From Clostridia bacterium (GTDB taxonomy: Bacteria; Bacillota; Clostridia; Oscillospirales; Acutalibacteraceae): a DNA stretch of 64,000 nt. The position numbers were made by a program, and so were the translations under genes. The stretch lies in assembly GCA_017397845.1 (NCBI GenBank), contig JAFQHU010000003.1, positions 310,001 through 374,000 on the forward strand, read 5' to 3'. Position 1 is the stretch's first letter. Each line of letters starts with the position of its first letter. Positions 33,385 through 61,674 of the stretch are shown here, one piece after another. The notes under the pieces were generated by a model. It saw only the letters and a program-made list of their open reading frames with translations. It ran no database searches and had not been told where the DNA came from.

Positions 33385-33531
33385 TCAAACTGTTTCTGCT
33401 TCTTTATCTTCGAGAGCTGCATTATAATCGTCAATAAGACCCTGAACAACTGCGGTGTCAGCACCGAAAGCTGTAAGAAGATCAAGGATTAAGTTTAAAA
33501 TCTGAAGATAAAGTTTGCCGATAAATTCCAT
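33385..33531 (-). CDS. Small amphipathic peptide, 48 residues
   Basis: An open frame too short for ordinary calling but well supported: AAGGAGG lies 8-9 bases before the ATG, a consensus promoter is upstream and a terminator downstream. It begins MEFIGKLYLQILNLI, continues as a hydrophobic helix ending LLTAFG, then an acidic tail (LEDKEAETV). There is no signal peptide or Cys. It lies directly downstream of the secreted 133-residue gene on the same strand. It resembles the peptides at 42961-43639 in size, helix and closing FG. Function unknown. Confidence 0.8.
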   Translation of the reverse strand: MEFIGKLYLQILNLILDLLTAFGADTAVVQGLIDDYNAALEDKEAETV

Positions 33532-33561: not shown

Positions 33562-33590
33562 ATTTTAACCCATTGTTATCTTTTTGTCAA
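33562..33590 (-). promoter_or_regulatory. Sigma-A promoter of the 48-residue peptide
   Basis: Minus strand TTGACA (33585-33590), 17-bp spacer, TAAAAT (33562-33567), about 31 bp before the ATG. Confidence 0.85.
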
Positions 33591-33711: not shown

Positions 33712-34113
33712 TTATGCCACTATAGGTGCTGTAGTTTCTGCCTCAGGTGCTTCAGTAACATCCTCTGTCTGTTCACCGTTCTGAGCATCCATAATCATAT
33801 CCACGATAGCATCGATAATGTAATCACCCATATCTTTGTCAACGAGACCGAAGATTTTGGCAACCTTAAGGAAAACATTAACGAGCTTAAGAGCGATCTT
33901 TGCAAATTTGAATGCAGGACCTACAGTCCAGAAAGGAAGGTCAAGAAGCCAATCGTATTCACCCAAATCAGGTACAACAGTTTCAGGTGTGTTTTCTGTT
34001 TCGGGTGCTGTGGTTTCTGTTCCTGCCTCAGGAGCTGCTTCTGTGGCGAAAGCAACAGTAACGAATGAGAACATCATTAAAATTGCAAGGAAAATTGAAA
34101 TAAGTTTTTTCAT
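33712..34113 (-). CDS. Small secreted protein with amphipathic helix
   Basis: A 133-residue exported protein. A signal peptide (1-24, MKKLISIFLAILMMFSF...AFA) is followed by a Thr/Pro/Glu-rich linker (ETTAPETENTPET), a central hydrophobic/amphipathic region whose helix ends KVAKIFGLVDKDMGD, and a second acidic Thr-rich tail. No domain is recognised. AGGAGG precedes the start and a sigma-A promoter with 17-bp spacing lies upstream, so high expression is predicted. The next gene downstream is the free 48-residue peptide. It may be a surface peptide or regulator; its role is not known. Confidence 0.8.
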   Translation of the reverse strand: MKKLISIFLAILMMFSFVTVAFATEAAPEAGTETTAPETENTPETVVPDLGEYDWLLDLPFWTVGPAFKFAKIALKLVNVFLKVAKIFGLVDKDMGDYIIDAIVDMIMDAQNGEQTEDVTEAPEAETTAPIVA

Positions 34114-34143: not shown

Positions 34144-34172
34144 AGTATATAATCAATTGAAGGTTTTGTCAA
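34144..34172 (-). promoter_or_regulatory. Sigma-A promoter of the secreted 133-residue gene
   Basis: Minus strand TTGACA (34167-34172), 17-bp spacer, TATACT (34144-34149). Confidence 0.85.
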
Positions 34173-34195: not shown

Positions 34196-34567
34196 TTATT
34201 TAAGCTCTTTAAGTATATCCTTAACCGCATCAACAAACTGTTCCTTTTTTTCCCCGTCGAGACTTCTGTATGCCATAAGAATAAACTTTTCATTTCTCGA
34301 TATTTCATTCAGGCCGTCGAGGCTTTCTCTGACTTTATCAGAGCGACTTGCGACCTTGAGTTCGGGGCAGTTTTTTTCCACACCGAAAAGATATCCTACC
34401 GTGACATTAAAAATATCGCAGAGCTTTACAATATTTTCTTTGGACGGGGTGCTTTTACCCGCCTCATAAAAAGTGTAGGTGCTTCTGTCCACACCGAGAA
34501 TGTCAGCTACTTCCTGCTGTGTAAGCTTAAAACTTTTTCTTAATATCCTGAGATTATCTGCAAGCAT
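34196..34567 (-). CDS. XRE-family transcriptional regulator
   Basis: A 123-residue regulator with a standard Cro/CI helix-turn-helix at 4-60 (LRKSFKLTQQEVADILGVDR, then YEAGKSTPSKENIVKLCDIF split) and a short C-terminal dimerization helix. No ligand domain. It lies just upstream, on the same strand, of the secreted-protein gene, whose promoter is 24 bp past its stop, so it could act on that locus, but no operator is evident. AAAGGAGAATTAAC ribosome binding site. Confidence 0.88.
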   Translation of the reverse strand: MLADNLRILRKSFKLTQQEVADILGVDRSTYTFYEAGKSTPSKENIVKLCDIFNVTVGYLFGVEKNCPELKVASRSDKVRESLDGLNEISRNEKFILMAYRSLDGEKKEQFVDAVKDILKELK

Positions 34568-39746: not shown

Positions 39747-41630
39747 ATGGCAAAGATTATTGGTATTGACTTAGGTACAACAAACTCATGTGTAGCAGTT
39801 ATCGAAGGTGGTGAACCTGTAGTTATCGCTAACGCTGAGGGCGCAAGAACAACTCCGTCAGTTGTTGCATTTTCAAAGACAGGTGAAAGAATGATCGGTC
39901 AGGTCGCCAAAAGACAGGCAGTTAAAAACCCCGACAGAACAATTTCTTCCATCAAACGTCAGATGGGCTCAAATTATCAGGTTTCCATTGACGGCAAAAA
40001 TTACACTCCCCAGGAAATTTCCGCTATGATTCTTCAGAAGCTTAAATCTGATGCTGAAGCATATTTGGGTGACACAGTAACAGAGGCAGTTATCACTGTT
40101 CCCGCTTACTTCACAGATGCTCAGAGACAGGCAACAAAGGATGCAGGTAAAATCGCAGGTCTCGAAGTAAAGAGAATTATCAATGAACCCACAGCTGCTG
40201 CTCTTGCCTACGGTATCGACAAAGAAGCAGATCAGAAGGTTATGGTTTATGACCTTGGCGGCGGTACATTCGACGTTTCCATCATCGAAATGGGTGACGG
40301 TGTTCAGGAGGTTCTTGCCACAGCAGGTAATAACCGTCTCGGCGGCGACGATTTCGACCAAAGAATTATCGACTGGATGGTTGCCACATACAAAGCTGAA
40401 GAAGGCGTGGATCTCCGCGGAGATAAGATGGCTATGCAGAGACTCAAGGAAGCCGCAGAAAAAGCAAAGATTGAGCTTTCCGGTATCACTTCCACATCCA
40501 TCTCTCTCCCCTATATTACTGTAGACGGTGCTGGCAACACACTTCATCTCGAAATGACTCTCTCGAGAGCAAAATTCAACGAGCTCACAGCTGACCTTGT
40601 CGAAGCAACAATGGGTCCCGTTCGTCAGGCAATTTCAGACTCAGGTCTCACCGTAAATCAGATTGACAAGGTTCTTATGGTAGGCGGTTCCTCCAGAATC
40701 CCCGCAGTAGGCGATGCAATCAAAAAATATATCGGTAAAGAACCCTTCAAGGGTATCAATCCCGACGAGTGTGTCGCCATCGGTGCTTCACTTCAGGCAG
40801 GCGTTTTAGGCGGCGATGTTAAGGGTCTCCTTCTTCTTGACGTTACTCCCCTTTCACTCGGTATCGAAACTATGGGCGGTATCAACACAAAGGTTATCGA
40901 AAGAAACACCACAATTCCCACAAAGAAGAGTCAGATTTTCTCCACAGCAGTGGACAATCAGCCCTCTGTTGAAGTGCACGTGCTTCAGGGCGAACGTGAG
41001 TTTGCAAGAGACAACAAAACATTGGGCGTATTCAGTCTCGACGGTATTATGCCTGCACGTCGCGGCGTTCCTCAGATCGAGGTTACCTTCGACATCGATG
41101 CAAACGGTATCGTACACGTTTCTGCAAAGGATCTCGGCACAGGTAAGGAACAGTCAATTTCCATCACATCCAGCACAAATATGTCCAAAGAAGATATCGA
41201 AAAGGCTGTAAGAGAAGCAGAGCAGTTCGCTCAGGAGGACAAAAAGCGCCGCGAAGAAATCGACACCAGAAACGAAGCAGACCAGATGGTTTATCAGTGT
41301 GAAAAAATTCTTTCAGAAGATGCTGCAAAAGCTCTCGACGAAAATGACAAGGCTGACATTCAGGCTAAGATCGATTCTCTCAAAAACGCTCTTAAGGGCG
41401 AAGACATCAATCTTATCAAAAACGAAAAGGAAGCTCTTACACAGGCCTTCTATAAACTCAGCGAAAAAATGTATCAGCAGGCAAATCCCCAGGGTGCTCA
41501 AGGCTTCAACCCCAATGATTTCGCAGGTGCTCAGGGCGGTTTTAATCAGGGCGATTTCGGCGGAGCAGCCGATAACGGCGGCTATACCGATGCAGGCTAT
41601 ACAGATGCAAACTTCACAGACGCTAACTGA
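39747..41630 (+). CDS. dnaK: Hsp70 chaperone DnaK
   Basis: The 627-residue Hsp70 has the ATPase domain (1-360: [47 protein letters not shown]), the substrate domain ([16 protein letters not shown] from about 365) and a helical lid. The tail is rich in Gly/Gln/Asn/Tyr ([20 protein letters not shown]). TTCGGAGG ribosome binding site, with a 54-bp gap to grpE. Confidence 0.98.
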
Positions 41631-42905: not shown

Positions 42906-42911
42906 AAACAA

Positions 42912-42943
42912 AGAGACTGCTCATCAACGAATGAACAGTCTCT
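42912..42943. terminator. Bidirectional terminator dnaJ / 34-residue peptide
   Basis: AGAGACTG / CAGTCTCT stem with inner TCAT/ATGA pairing, flanked by A- and T-rich tracts, between convergent genes. Confidence 0.85.
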
Positions 42944-42960
42944 TAAATTTTACATGGACT

Positions 42961-43065
42961 TTATACATCTACACCGATATCTTCGAGAAATTCAGCAATA
43001 ATCGTGAAAAGCTTTTTAAACCATTCAACGATACCGTTTACGTAAGTTTCAACATTTTCTAACAT
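42961..43065 (-). CDS. Small amphipathic peptide, 34 residues
   Basis: A short gene with its own consensus promoter and CAGGAGG 8 bases before ATG. It reads MLENVETYVNGIVEW, then an aromatic/hydrophobic helix FKKLFTIIAEFLEDIG, ending DV. It has no signal peptide and no Cys. It lies third in a tandem series of small peptide genes on the minus strand, convergent with dnaJ. It resembles the closing helices of the secreted proteins at 43813 and 60820. Function unknown; membrane binding is plausible from its amphipathic pattern. Confidence 0.78.
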   Translation of the reverse strand: MLENVETYVNGIVEWFKKLFTIIAEFLEDIGVDV

Positions 43066-43099
43066 AAAATAGTCCTCCTGTTTTTTGTTTTGCATTATA

Positions 43100-43128
43100 A
43101 TTATATAACTTTAAGCGGTAAAAGTCAA
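43100..43128 (-). promoter_or_regulatory. Sigma-A promoter of the 34-residue peptide
   Basis: Minus strand TTGACT (43123-43128), 17-bp spacer, TATAAT (43100-43105). Confidence 0.85.
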
Positions 43129-43145
43129 TATTTACAGATAAAAAA

Positions 43146-43175
43146 ACAAAACCCACCTTTGCCGGTGGGTTTTGT
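43146..43175 (-). terminator. Terminator of the 39-residue peptide gene
   Basis: Perfect 12-bp stem ACAAAACCCACC / GGTGGGTTTTGT, with a seven-T run on the minus strand. Confidence 0.9.
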
Positions 43176-43177
43176 CC

Positions 43178-43193
43178 TTAAACAATTGTTTAA
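43178..43193. repeat. CAATTG-centred palindrome in 3-prime UTR
   Basis: TTAAACAATTGTTTAA, a perfect palindrome between the peptide stop and its terminator; a near copy is at 43472-43487. Confidence 0.85.
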
Positions 43194-43204
43194 TTCAGAA
43201 TGAA

Positions 43205-43324
43205 TTATTTCTCGATTTCAACGAACTTCTTTTCTTCTTCATCATATTCATAACCGAAGATTTCGATGATCTTAGCGATGAGTTCGAAAAGGTATGTGTA
43301 CATATCTTTGATTGTTTCAAACAT
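43205..43324 (-). CDS. Small amphipathic peptide, 39 residues
   Basis: Begins at 43324 with AAGGAGG nine bases upstream. The sequence opens MFETIKDMYTYLFEL, continues as an Ile-rich helix ending IIEIFGYEYDEEEK and an acidic/basic tail. Its promoter, leader and 3-prime palindrome are shared with the neighbouring 42-residue peptide gene, showing the two arose by duplication, although the coding parts have diverged. No signal peptide. Function unknown. Confidence 0.8.
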   Translation of the reverse strand: MFETIKDMYTYLFELIAKIIEIFGYEYDEEEKKFVEIEK

Positions 43325-43375
43325 TGTATTTTTCCTCCTTTTTAAATTTATCAAGGTATCCCTTAATATGGTTAG

Positions 43376-43404
43376 ATTATATATCATAACATTATAAATG
43401 TCAA
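43376..43404 (-). promoter_or_regulatory. Consensus sigma-A promoter of the 39-residue peptide
   Basis: Minus strand TTGACA (43399-43404), 17-bp spacer, TATAAT (43376-43381); upstream TTTTGAATAAACTA is shared with the promoter at 43691-43719. Confidence 0.92.
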
Positions 43405-43441
43405 TAGTTTATTCAAAATTATTTCATAAAAAAGATAAAAA

Positions 43442-43469
43442 GAAAGAACACCCCTATGGGTGCTCTTTC
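43442..43469 (-). terminator. Terminator of the 42-residue peptide gene
   Basis: GAAAGAACACCC / GGGTGCTCTTTC stem (one mismatch) with a 4-nt loop, followed by a T-rich run on the minus strand. Confidence 0.85.
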
Positions 43470-43471
43470 CC

Positions 43472-43487
43472 TAAAACAATTGTTTTA
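43472..43487. repeat. CAATTG-centred palindrome, second copy
   Basis: TAAAACAATTGTTTTA, matching the palindrome at 43178-43193 in position between stop codon and terminator. Confidence 0.85.
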
Positions 43488-43510
43488 ACTAGTTTAAATT
43501 ATTCAGCAGC

Positions 43511-43639
43511 TTATTCGCCCTTTACATAAGCTTCGAAACCAGCAACATCTTCTTCAGTTGCGTAGCCAAAGTATGCAAATACTTTGAGGAAGTAGAGAAG
43601 GATGTTTTCAATGATTGCTTTGAAATCGATGTTTTCCAT
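43511..43639 (-). CDS. Small amphipathic peptide, 42 residues
   Basis: Starts at 43639 with AAAAGGAGG about 9 bases upstream. It reads MENIDFKAIIENILLYFLKV, then FAYFGYATEEDVAG and an acidic tail. Hydrophobic and aromatic residues recur every 3-4 positions over residues 6-26, giving an amphipathic helix. It is the first of three tandem small-peptide genes downstream of the Cys-rich secreted protein gene, each with its own promoter and terminator. Function unknown. Confidence 0.8.
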   Translation of the reverse strand: MENIDFKAIIENILLYFLKVFAYFGYATEEDVAGFEAYVKGE

Positions 43640-43690
43640 TACTGTGCGCCTCCTTTTAAGATTTGCCAAGGTTACCCTTAACATAGCTTG

Positions 43691-43719
43691 ATTATATATC
43701 AGAAAAACTAAAATGTCAA
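43691..43719 (-). promoter_or_regulatory. Consensus sigma-A promoter of the 42-residue peptide
   Basis: Minus strand TTGACA (43714-43719), 17-bp spacer, TATAAT (43691-43696), nearly the same flanks as the promoter at 43376-43404. Confidence 0.92.
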
Positions 43720-43769
43720 TAGTTTATTCAAAATTACTTAATATTTTTACAAATTTGTGAAAATATTAA

Positions 43770-43794
43770 AGAGACCGCCTGATGACGGTCTCAA
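43770..43794 (-). terminator. Terminator of the Cys-rich secreted gene
   Basis: GAGACCG / CGGTCTC stem with an 8-nt loop followed by TTTAAT on the minus strand. Confidence 0.75.
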
Positions 43795-43812
43795 TTATGT
43801 TTATATTAACTA

Positions 43813-44259
43813 TCAGTTGTTACCCATAATCTCATCGAATCTTAAGAATTCGAAGATAGCATTAAAGAGCTTGTCAAAGAATTCACGGATACGGCTGAGA
43901 ACATTTTGGAAACCATCGATAACCTCTTCCTGCTGGTCAGGAGTAAGGATGGGACCGTTACCTGTATTGTTGCCGCCGTTTGCGTCGGGAGCACAGCAAT
44001 CACAGCCACAGTTACAGGGAATAAGACCGGTACATTCATTACAGCATCTTTTGTTGTAATCGTATTCACCGTCTACAGCTGCATCCTTAATACAGGAAGT
44101 AATGTAATGGACATCAAGATTATTACAATCAAAGCAGCAATGACATCCTTCCGCAGAGTTTGTGTGAGTTTTACAGTCACATCCCGCAGCACCGGCAAGG
44201 AAAGTGAATGAAAGAGCAAGAATTAAAATTGACATCAAGATTGAAAGAGTTTTTTTCAT
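43813..44259 (-). CDS. Secreted Cys-rich protein with amphipathic C-terminal helix
   Basis: A 148-residue exported protein; the start at 44259 follows AGGAGG. After a signal peptide (1-26, MKKTLSILMSILILALSF...GAAG) comes a domain with about 15 Cys in CxC and CC pairs (GCDCKTH, GCHCCFDC, RCCNEC, CNCGCDCC), then a Gly/Asn linker, LTPDQQEEVIDGF and a C-terminal amphipathic helix (REFFDKLFNAIFEFLRF). The Cys may bind metal or form disulfides. It heads the cluster of small peptide genes and has a perfect promoter. No family named. Confidence 0.8.
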   Translation of the reverse strand: MKKTLSILMSILILALSFTFLAGAAGCDCKTHTNSAEGCHCCFDCNNLDVHYITSCIKDAAVDGEYDYNKRCCNECTGLIPCNCGCDCCAPDANGGNNTGNGPILTPDQQEEVIDGFQNVLSRIREFFDKLFNAIFEFLRFDEIMGNN

Positions 44260-44314
44260 ATTAAATTCCTCCTGAAATTTCGGTGAAAATATAAAACACC
44301 TTTTTAACATCTAT

Positions 44315-44343
44315 ATTATAATGAATAACTTTCCAATTGTCAA
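44315..44343 (-). promoter_or_regulatory. Consensus sigma-A promoter of the Cys-rich gene
   Basis: Minus strand TTGACA (44338-44343), 17-bp spacer, TATAAT (44315-44320). Confidence 0.92.
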
Positions 44344-60819: not shown

Positions 60820-61674
60820 ATGAAAAAAATATTAGCACTTGTTCTTTCTGTTATTATGCTTTTATCCGTAATACCTGTGGCTTATGCGGAAAGAGTAATT
60901 TATTCACCTGAGGTCGAGCAGTATATTGAAATTATGTTGAGAATTATATCTTATCGTGAAAATTTGTACGAATCTGGACACGAGTATGACTCCGGCATAG
61001 ATGTAGATTTTAAAAAAGTTTCCGATATTCTAAATAATAAGTATCGAGAATTTGTAGTTCTTGGTTATCATGAATTGCCTGAACCAAGTTATGAAAATAT
61101 TAAAATGATAGATAAGAATGCTTTGGTAGATTTCAACAGAATCATGCAACCCGCCATAGATGAGGTGGAAGCAAAAATTACAAGTGGCGAAATTAAGGTT
61201 GTTATAAACACTTATGAGCTTGTTAAATATTATTATTCCGGCTTTATTTATTATGATGAAGATGAATTTAACAGAATTGTTGATTATATAGGAAATAATG
61301 AAAAATACGCTGAACTGGGCAACATAGCAATGGATAGTCTGAACGAAATGTTAAAATACCGTGATGATCCAAATGTAAAAATTACACAGGCTGAATTTGA
61401 TGCGATGTTTAAAGAAAAATACGCTCCTTTTTGGGATATGGTTATCAACTGTCTTGACGGCAACCACCCATACAGTGAATACATATCAAACAATGATGCC
61501 ACCGAAGAAGCCGACGGCACAAAGACCGCTACCTGTGAATTCTGCGGTGCAACCGATACAGTTGTTGACGAAGGCTCAAAGCTCGTTAAAGAAGAGGAAA
61601 ACTTATCATTTTTTGCAAGGCTTTTTGCTTTGATAAAAGCATTCTTTGAAAAAATCTTTTCAATCTTTGGTTGA
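60820..61674 (+). CDS. Secreted protein with Cys-pair repeat and amphipathic C-terminal helix
   Basis: A 284-residue exported protein; the ATG at 60820 follows GAGGTG. Signal peptide 1-23 (MKKILALVLSVIMLLSVIPV...YA), a helical acidic body (25-220), then one copy of a clostridial surface-protein motif around residues 222-258 (SEYISNNDATEEADG, TATCEFCGATDTVVDEGSK) and an aromatic C-terminal helix LSFFARLFALIKAFFEKIF with final SIFG. No sortase signal. Its terminal helix resembles the free peptides at 33-44 kb. Function unknown. It lies between tRNA-Val and a partial tRNA copy. Confidence 0.8.
   Translation: MKKILALVLSVIMLLSVIPVAYAERVIYSPEVEQYIEIMLRIISYRENLYESGHEYDSGIDVDFKKVSDILNNKYREFVVLGYHELPEPSYENIKMIDKNALVDFNRIMQPAIDEVEAKITSGEIKVVINTYELVKYYYSGFIYYDEDEFNRIVDYIGNNEKYAELGNIAMDSLNEMLKYRDDPNVKITQAEFDAMFKEKYAPFWDMVINCLDGNHPYSEYISNNDATEEADGTKTATCEFCGATDTVVDEGSKLVKEEENLSFFARLFALIKAFFEKIFSIFG

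Follow-up and report, generated by a model that had tools for sequence, protein, structure and literature searches.

A cluster of very small genes behind the gene of a Cys-rich, secreted-type protein raises two questions: whether such short frames are genes at all, and what their products might do. The cluster lies in a stretch of 64,000 nucleotides of Clostridia DNA, the whole of which is called the window here, and occupies positions 42911-44343 of the minus strand as four units in the order CysT, pep3, pep2, pep1. The end of dnaJ adjoins it on the opposite strand. A preliminary description had reported three tandem genes of 34, 39 and 42 codons behind the Cys-rich gene, and their coordinates hold. 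The features are as follows.

44315..44343, minus strand: CysT promoter, TTGACA-N17-TATAAT
43813..44259, minus strand: CysT, Cys-rich protein of 148 residues with a signal-peptide-like start and a C-terminal amphipathic tail, VLSRIREFFDKLFNAIFEFLRF
43771..43792, minus strand: CysT terminator-like hairpin
43691..43719, minus strand: pep3 promoter, TTGACA-N17-TATAAT
43664..43683, minus strand: pep3 5'-terminal leader hairpin, 8 pairs with a GTAA loop
43511..43639, minus strand: pep3, leaderless peptide of 42 residues
43439..43472, minus strand: pep3 terminator-like hairpin
43376..43404, minus strand: pep2 promoter, TTGACA-N17-TATAAT
43349..43368, minus strand: pep2 5'-terminal leader hairpin, 8 pairs with a GATA loop
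43205..43324, minus strand: pep2, leaderless amphipathic peptide of 39 residues
43142..43179, minus strand: pep2 terminator-like hairpin
43100..43128, minus strand: pep1 promoter, TTGACT-N17-TATAAT
42961..43065, minus strand: pep1, leaderless amphipathic peptide of 34 residues, suggestively similar to the CysT tail
42911..42944, minus strand: pep1 terminator-like hairpin

Each of the four genes has a promoter of the form TTGAC[A/T]-N17-TATAAT, an AGGAGG sequence and a terminator-like hairpin. The promoters match the consensus at 12/12 positions for CysT, pep3 and pep2 and at 11/12 for pep1, with a spacer of 17 throughout, in agreement with the signals described earlier for each tiny gene. Between positions 41500 and 45500 there are six terminator-like hairpin sites, four of them directly 3' of the cluster genes. 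Every gene thus has a hairpin of its own, as had been proposed, and the sharing of one hairpin between genes, also proposed, is not required. The frames of pep1, pep2 and pep3 lack a signal peptide, as had been noted; the statement that several of the peptides end in FG applies to the helices of pep2 and pep3 and not to the ends of the peptides. In a scan of the whole window against Rfam, a tRNA was the sole element above the gathering threshold.

The signals are too regular for chance. A strict pattern (TTGAC-N18-TATAAT-N18..48-AGGAGG-N4..10-ATG) occurs eight times in the genome of 2.31 Mb (26 contigs), while the reversed pattern does not occur. Four of the eight matches are the cluster genes, two are other tiny amphipathic peptides (49 and 37 residues), and the remaining ones are a large secreted-type repeat protein and a protein of 121 residues. 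In 721,380 bases of retrieved loci, overlaps included and each ORF counted once, there are 72 distinct tiny amphipathic ORFs, compared with two in the reversed and two in the shuffled sequence under identical filters; a part of these loci was chosen by means of a promoter pattern, which inflates the forward count, and 72 is not a density. When a promoter of at least 11/12 is required, 59 are retained, compared with none in either control. The preliminary description was right, on these counts, that such uniform signals go beyond random short frames. It had also named conservation of the frames as a point to be checked: pN was found to be smaller than pS in 18/18 pairwise comparisons of pep1, pep2 and pep3 among G000, G011, G014 and G032, indicating purifying selection, with the qualifications that the pairs share genomes and are not independent, that some dS values are saturated and that the G011 pep2 alignment is loose. 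Chance ORFs are ruled out by this result together with the near-zero controls. The same evidence makes the wider explanation, in which the strong promoters precede chance ORFs or transcribe non-coding RNAs, practically negligible, and no point in its support was found.

The helical moment was compared with 1000 shuffles of the same peptide. It was equalled by 0 shuffles for pep1, 29 for pep2, 169 for pep3 and 1 for the CysT tail; the amphipathic helix claimed for all three peptides is therefore upheld for pep1 and pep2, and for pep3 it is not supported by the moment alone. Of 17 helices tested, all picked as amphipathic, 12 were at 50 shuffles or fewer. Judged from the sequence, pep1, pep2 and pep3 are real, conserved genes for leaderless peptides with predicted amphipathic helices.

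Many of the leaders start with a hairpin of about eight pairs, situated about eight bases after the -10 box and hence near the likely start of the mRNA. Upon aligning 27 leaders, which were hand-picked for an apparent hairpin and so do not represent a frequency, 86% of the cells were found to pair, as compared with 37 to 47% in slid versions of the alignment. The percentage paired, the doubly changed cells and the covariation score were all above those of 500/500 shuffles; the number of pairs with a double change (7/8) was reached in 45/500 shuffles and the number of pair types in 74/500. In an unpicked sample, a fold of -4 kcal/mol or lower within bases 5 to 34 after the -10 box was found for 28/45 tiny amphipathic units and 27/101 others (Fisher p 8e-5, related units being counted separately). 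Among 23 long genes with a leader fold, 18 begin, by eye, with a signal-peptide-like MKK or similar. Hairpins at the 5' end can stabilize mRNA, and we infer that the leader hairpin may do so here. A promoter, a leader hairpin and a terminator for each gene fit abundant monocistronic products.

Similar genes are found across the genus. At least 62 distinct tiny peptides, 26 to 56 residues long, are encoded in 21 of the 34 genomes, a lower bound because the genomes were read in part only; the 62 are what was left of 68 candidates after six had been dropped as unlikely, ahead of the charge, promoter and antisense counts. Their hydrophobic and aromatic positions are conserved. The promoter matches at 12/12 for 32 of the 62 genes, and 58 of the 62 peptides are net negative, with a median charge of -4. 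Some of the genes form arrays: 11 or 12 in G017, seven in G021, five in G015, and three each in G000, in G002 and at a second G015 locus. Some arrays adjoin no recognized tailed protein. A survey with a relaxed consensus covered matches outside the loci already collected in G000, G032, G002 and G015 and a few chosen from G008, G019 and G021; these promoters presumably drive genes for tiny amphipathic peptides, tailed secreted-type proteins, ribosomal protein S21, a SCIFF-like peptide and ordinary genes.

Pfam, NCBIfam, PHROGs, PADLOC and the PDB sequences gave weak matches only and no convincing family. Among the PDB sequences the best E value for a pep2/pep3 profile was 1.4 and CysT had no match up to E 1; PADLOC had no match for pep1-3, CysT or the protein K described below. 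When 295 genomes of the order were scanned with the pep2/pep3 profile, two had a match, namely the window's own and a weak second (E 0.002). That such peptides are easily missed is apparent from a search with pep3 of 5.8 billion predicted proteins, which requires shared words and returned the window's own peptide and one other. Three relatives, all of them Clostridia MAGs, come from the rectum of goats and sheep, which makes a gut origin of the genus likely.

At L207 (G008:C47) and L208 (G017:C13), single or arrayed tiny amphipathic genes adjoin what by eye resembles a phage module, with terminase-, portal- and capsid-like genes; at L182 (G021:C73) and L183 (G015:C24) they adjoin a terminase-like gene. 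A phage origin was not adopted, because the window cluster is without terminase-like genes and the PHROG matches of pep1-3 are no better than E 0.15. The best PHROG matches among nine scanned proteins, at E 0.0011 (unknown function) and 0.011 (head protein), both belong to array peptides.

The preliminary description had named four possible functions without preferring any, namely membrane-active peptides, signals, type I toxin-like peptides and regulators. Two of these suggestions can be weighed against the present counts. Type I toxins silenced by antisense RNAs would, like the present peptides, be tiny, hydrophobic and encoded in tandem copies. However, an antisense promoter of at least 10/12, sigma-70-type only, was found for 1 of the 62 genes, fewer than the 5.7 expected by shuffling, and the peptides are acidic. 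An antisense-regulated toxin is very improbable and was rejected on the antisense-promoter count. Membrane-active peptides in general are compatible with the data. In one form of this proposal, the genes encode a multi-peptide leaderless bacteriocin or lytic peptides resembling phenol-soluble modulins, which would be exported and act on the membranes of other cells. The absence of a leader, the length of 26 to 56 residues, the aromatic, amphipathic character and the tandem and array arrangement agree with it, but known leaderless bacteriocins are cationic, whereas 58 of the 62 peptides are acidic. Moreover, visual inspection of gene lists that carry no systematic annotation revealed no ABC exporter gene next to the clusters, and neither a bacteriocin nor a modulin model appeared among the Pfam or NCBIfam matches, inspected for modulins up to E 10 (further peptides against Pfam only). 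Attack on other cells by such peptides is distinctly unlikely.

The neighborhood of the tiny genes points in another direction. CysT is present in 33 of the 34 genomes of the genus, at varied places; among 150 genomes of the family, full-length matches were found in three, all of this genus, and eight more were confined to residues 1-64. At 13 of the 33 CysT loci, including that of the window, one to three tiny amphipathic genes with a promoter of at least 10/12 follow within 1 kb, as compared with 0/33 on the opposite strand. When the promoter is not required, the numbers are 14/33 and 4/33. The other 19 of the 33 loci have no tiny amphipathic gene within 1 kb after CysT; at three of these the contig stops less than 300 bases on, and one of the three (G025) has a tiny amphipathic frame that extends past the contig end.

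The tail of CysT is itself a predicted helix of a similar kind. An aromatic amphipathic C-terminal tail was found in 42 of 94 secreted-like proteins, 30 of the 42 being CysT orthologues, and in 7 of 351 soluble proteins without a signal peptide; within the window's own genome the corresponding counts are 3/14 and 3/60 (p 0.08). The window contains a further protein with such a tail.

60820..61674, plus strand: secreted-type protein of 284 residues with the amphipathic tail FFARLFALIKAFFEKIFSIFG at its end

The CysT homologue of G027 (L095) has 313 residues, with three tandem Cys-rich units followed by the same type of tail. A second secreted-type family of about 150 residues has the conserved tail FERIN[MK]IF[EQ]YFA and a consensus promoter (L145, L159, L174, L187). 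A profile of the 33 CysT tails reached 8 bits or more in 16 of 81 helices (78 tiny ORFs, the six candidates later dropped as unlikely still included, and 3 other tails), as compared with 31 of 1620 shuffles in which the hydrophobic pattern was preserved, showing that the likeness of the set to the CysT tail exceeds a bare amphipathic pattern. Four pep1 orthologues score 10.9 to 19.0 bits. The pep1 of the window has 10.9 bits, and one of its 20 pattern-keeping shuffles has 11.5; the G032 orthologue has 19.0 bits, and its best shuffle 14.0. The resemblance of the window's pep1 to the CysT tail is suggestive.

The explanation preferred here, quite possible if tentative and drawn from sequence, is that the leaderless peptides are exported and co-assemble with secreted proteins through the amphipathic tails of the latter, which would thereby stay on the cell. 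The steps that we infer are strong expression, helix formation, export and tail binding. The peptides would likely be made in large amounts and would likely leave the cell without a signal peptide. At the cell surface they would bind the amphipathic C-terminal tails of secreted proteins, and this binding would keep those proteins on the cell.

The preliminary description had treated the Cys-rich gene as a neighbor. The adjacency is real, but CysT in fact belongs to a conserved module, together with the protein K and a further tiny gene. The features of this second region are listed below.

34196..34567, minus strand: HTH_3 (XRE-type) gene between uvrC and K
34144..34172, minus strand: K promoter, TTGACA-N17-TATACT
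33712..34113, minus strand: K, protein of 133 residues with a signal-peptide-like start and a conserved cationic amphipathic helix, FKFAKIALKLVNVFLKVAKIFG, inside acidic arms
33562..33590, minus strand: promoter of the fourth tiny gene, TTGACA-N17-TAAAAT
33385..33531, minus strand: fourth tiny leaderless peptide, 48 residues, followed by a terminator-like hairpin seen by eye; G014 and G032 have counterparts after K

In the window, K is about 10 kb from CysT. Coordinates compared by hand place it within 1 kb before CysT on the same strand in 15 genomes and at about 10 kb or less in four (G000, G001, G010, G011); in 12 genomes the two are on different contigs. Among the 34 genomes, G027 and G030 have CysT but no K, and G013 has neither. 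An HTH-like gene precedes K at 24 of 30 loci and is itself preceded by a uvrC-like gene at 20 of the 24 (by eye). Pfam upheld both identities in the window, and the matches of the window's HTH protein in PADLOC are many generic HTH models. From its position, the HTH_3 gene is a possible regulator. The K leader contains TACCAAA between the -10 box and AGGAGG at 16 of 30 loci (window 34143-34114; L226-L254); its TACC could pair with the ribosome site. A relative of K, P0051, is labelled 'acid shock protein' in public records.

The charge distribution of K gives rise to a competing explanation. At 30 loci, the most cationic stretch of 26 residues has a charge of +3 to +7 and a moment of 0.42 to 0.64; beyond residue 22, the part of the chain outside this stretch has a charge of -9 to -27. 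An antimicrobial helix held by acidic pro-regions is a known plan, and K, conserved in 31 of the 34 genomes, is a candidate antimicrobial precursor. K might accordingly be secreted as a pro-bacteriocin and set its cationic helix free outside the cell, while the acidic leaderless peptides would neutralize this helix by pairing, inside the cell or on its membrane. The acidity of nearly all the tiny peptides (58/62) would suit this role. So would the gene order in G000, G014 and G032, where a tiny gene directly follows K, and in G003, G005, G006, G009 and G020, where K, CysT and tiny genes are neighbors. However, G007, G012, G016, G018, G019, G021 and G028 have K and CysT side by side and no tiny gene in the 1 kb that follows; the count covers this 1 kb only and leaves room for tiny genes elsewhere, G021 having an array. 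The long arrays away from K are likewise unexplained. Neutralization of K by the tiny peptides is the main alternative, serious but doubtful. The CysT neighborhood favors retention of secreted proteins at the surface and the charge contrast with K favors neutralization; the data do not separate the two.

The route out of the cell is addressed by a helix that occurs in two forms. In G001, G010, G012 and G016, a protein with a signal peptide is encoded between the HTH-like gene and K, with a helix that begins WLT and ends KLGIK. In G009 and G020 a leaderless peptide of the same frame occupies this position, and in G027, which is without K, two leaderless copies of the helix lie upstream of CysT. 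The frame upstream of the three leaderless copies examined encodes no signal peptide, and these copies have promoter-like sequences that match the consensus at 10/12 positions. One type of helix with a leader in some species and without one in others fits leaderless export. Leaderless helices may thus act outside the cell, the pairs with and without a leader being the best evidence for this. The alternative is that the peptides are never exported and bind the inner leaflet, adjusting a membrane enzyme or the membrane curvature. The amphipathic character, the lack of a signal peptide and the conserved hydrophobic and aromatic positions agree with this, but neither the secreted-type proteins in the neighborhood nor the signal peptide borne by the same helix in other species is explained, and we consider this location unlikely.

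Retention of secreted proteins by exported peptides could also be part of a larger arrangement, a genus-specific surface machine built of helices. In it, the cationic helix of K would be exported by the Sec route, acidic leaderless helices would cross the membrane and pair by face and charge, and Cys-rich and other secreted proteins would dock through their helix tails. The acidic arrays, which would be expanding, would pair with both K and the docked tails. As a whole, such a machine is improbable.

If the simpler arrangement, retention through tail binding, is correct, the trapping of proteins by leaderless amphipathic peptides exists far outside the staphylococci, and the helix tail can be tested as a sorting signal. 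Since one type of helix bears a signal peptide in some species and none in their sister species, the exit route of the leaderless peptides is directly testable.

Several known systems resemble parts of this one. Leaderless multi-peptide bacteriocins such as aureocin A70 and garvicin KS consist of several cationic peptides of about 30 to 40 residues, encoded in an operon with a transporter. The peptides of the genus are likewise leaderless and encoded side by side but, unlike those bacteriocins, are mostly acidic, have their own promoters and have no recognized transporter beside them. K can be likened, by description, to Sec-dependent bacteriocins and to rumen antimicrobial peptides such as the Lynronnes, with which it shares a cationic amphipathic helix and, likely, an origin in gut bacteria. 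It differs from them in that strongly acidic arms of the same chain enclose the helix.

The phenol-soluble modulins (PSMs) are leaderless, amphipathic peptides of about 20 to 45 residues encoded by tandem genes (PMC12607899). The peptides of 34, 39 and 42 residues described here are likewise leaderless, small and encoded in tandem, and are predicted to be amphipathic, the helical moment bearing this out for pep1 and pep2; they differ by their separate promoters and by their occurrence in a genus of Clostridia. The closest parallel to protein retention at the surface is LspU of Staphylococcus aureus. The gene of this leaderless amphipathic peptide adjoins that of a lipase, and the peptide is reported to leave the cell through the PSM transporters and to trap lipases at the cell surface (PMC12607899). 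In the open-access literature, a surface-holding role was found described for the staphylococcal peptide only, and no report of the present system was found. The peptides of the genus would, under the proposed model, work like LspU; common descent is not claimed. The likeness consists in a tiny leaderless amphipathic peptide gene beside the gene of a secreted protein, as at the 13 of 33 CysT loci. The differences are that LspU and LspD lie in former untranslated regions of lipase mRNA (PMC12607899), whereas each peptide gene of the genus has its own promoter and terminator, and that in the genus the secreted neighbor ends in an amphipathic tail and the peptides occur as families and in arrays.
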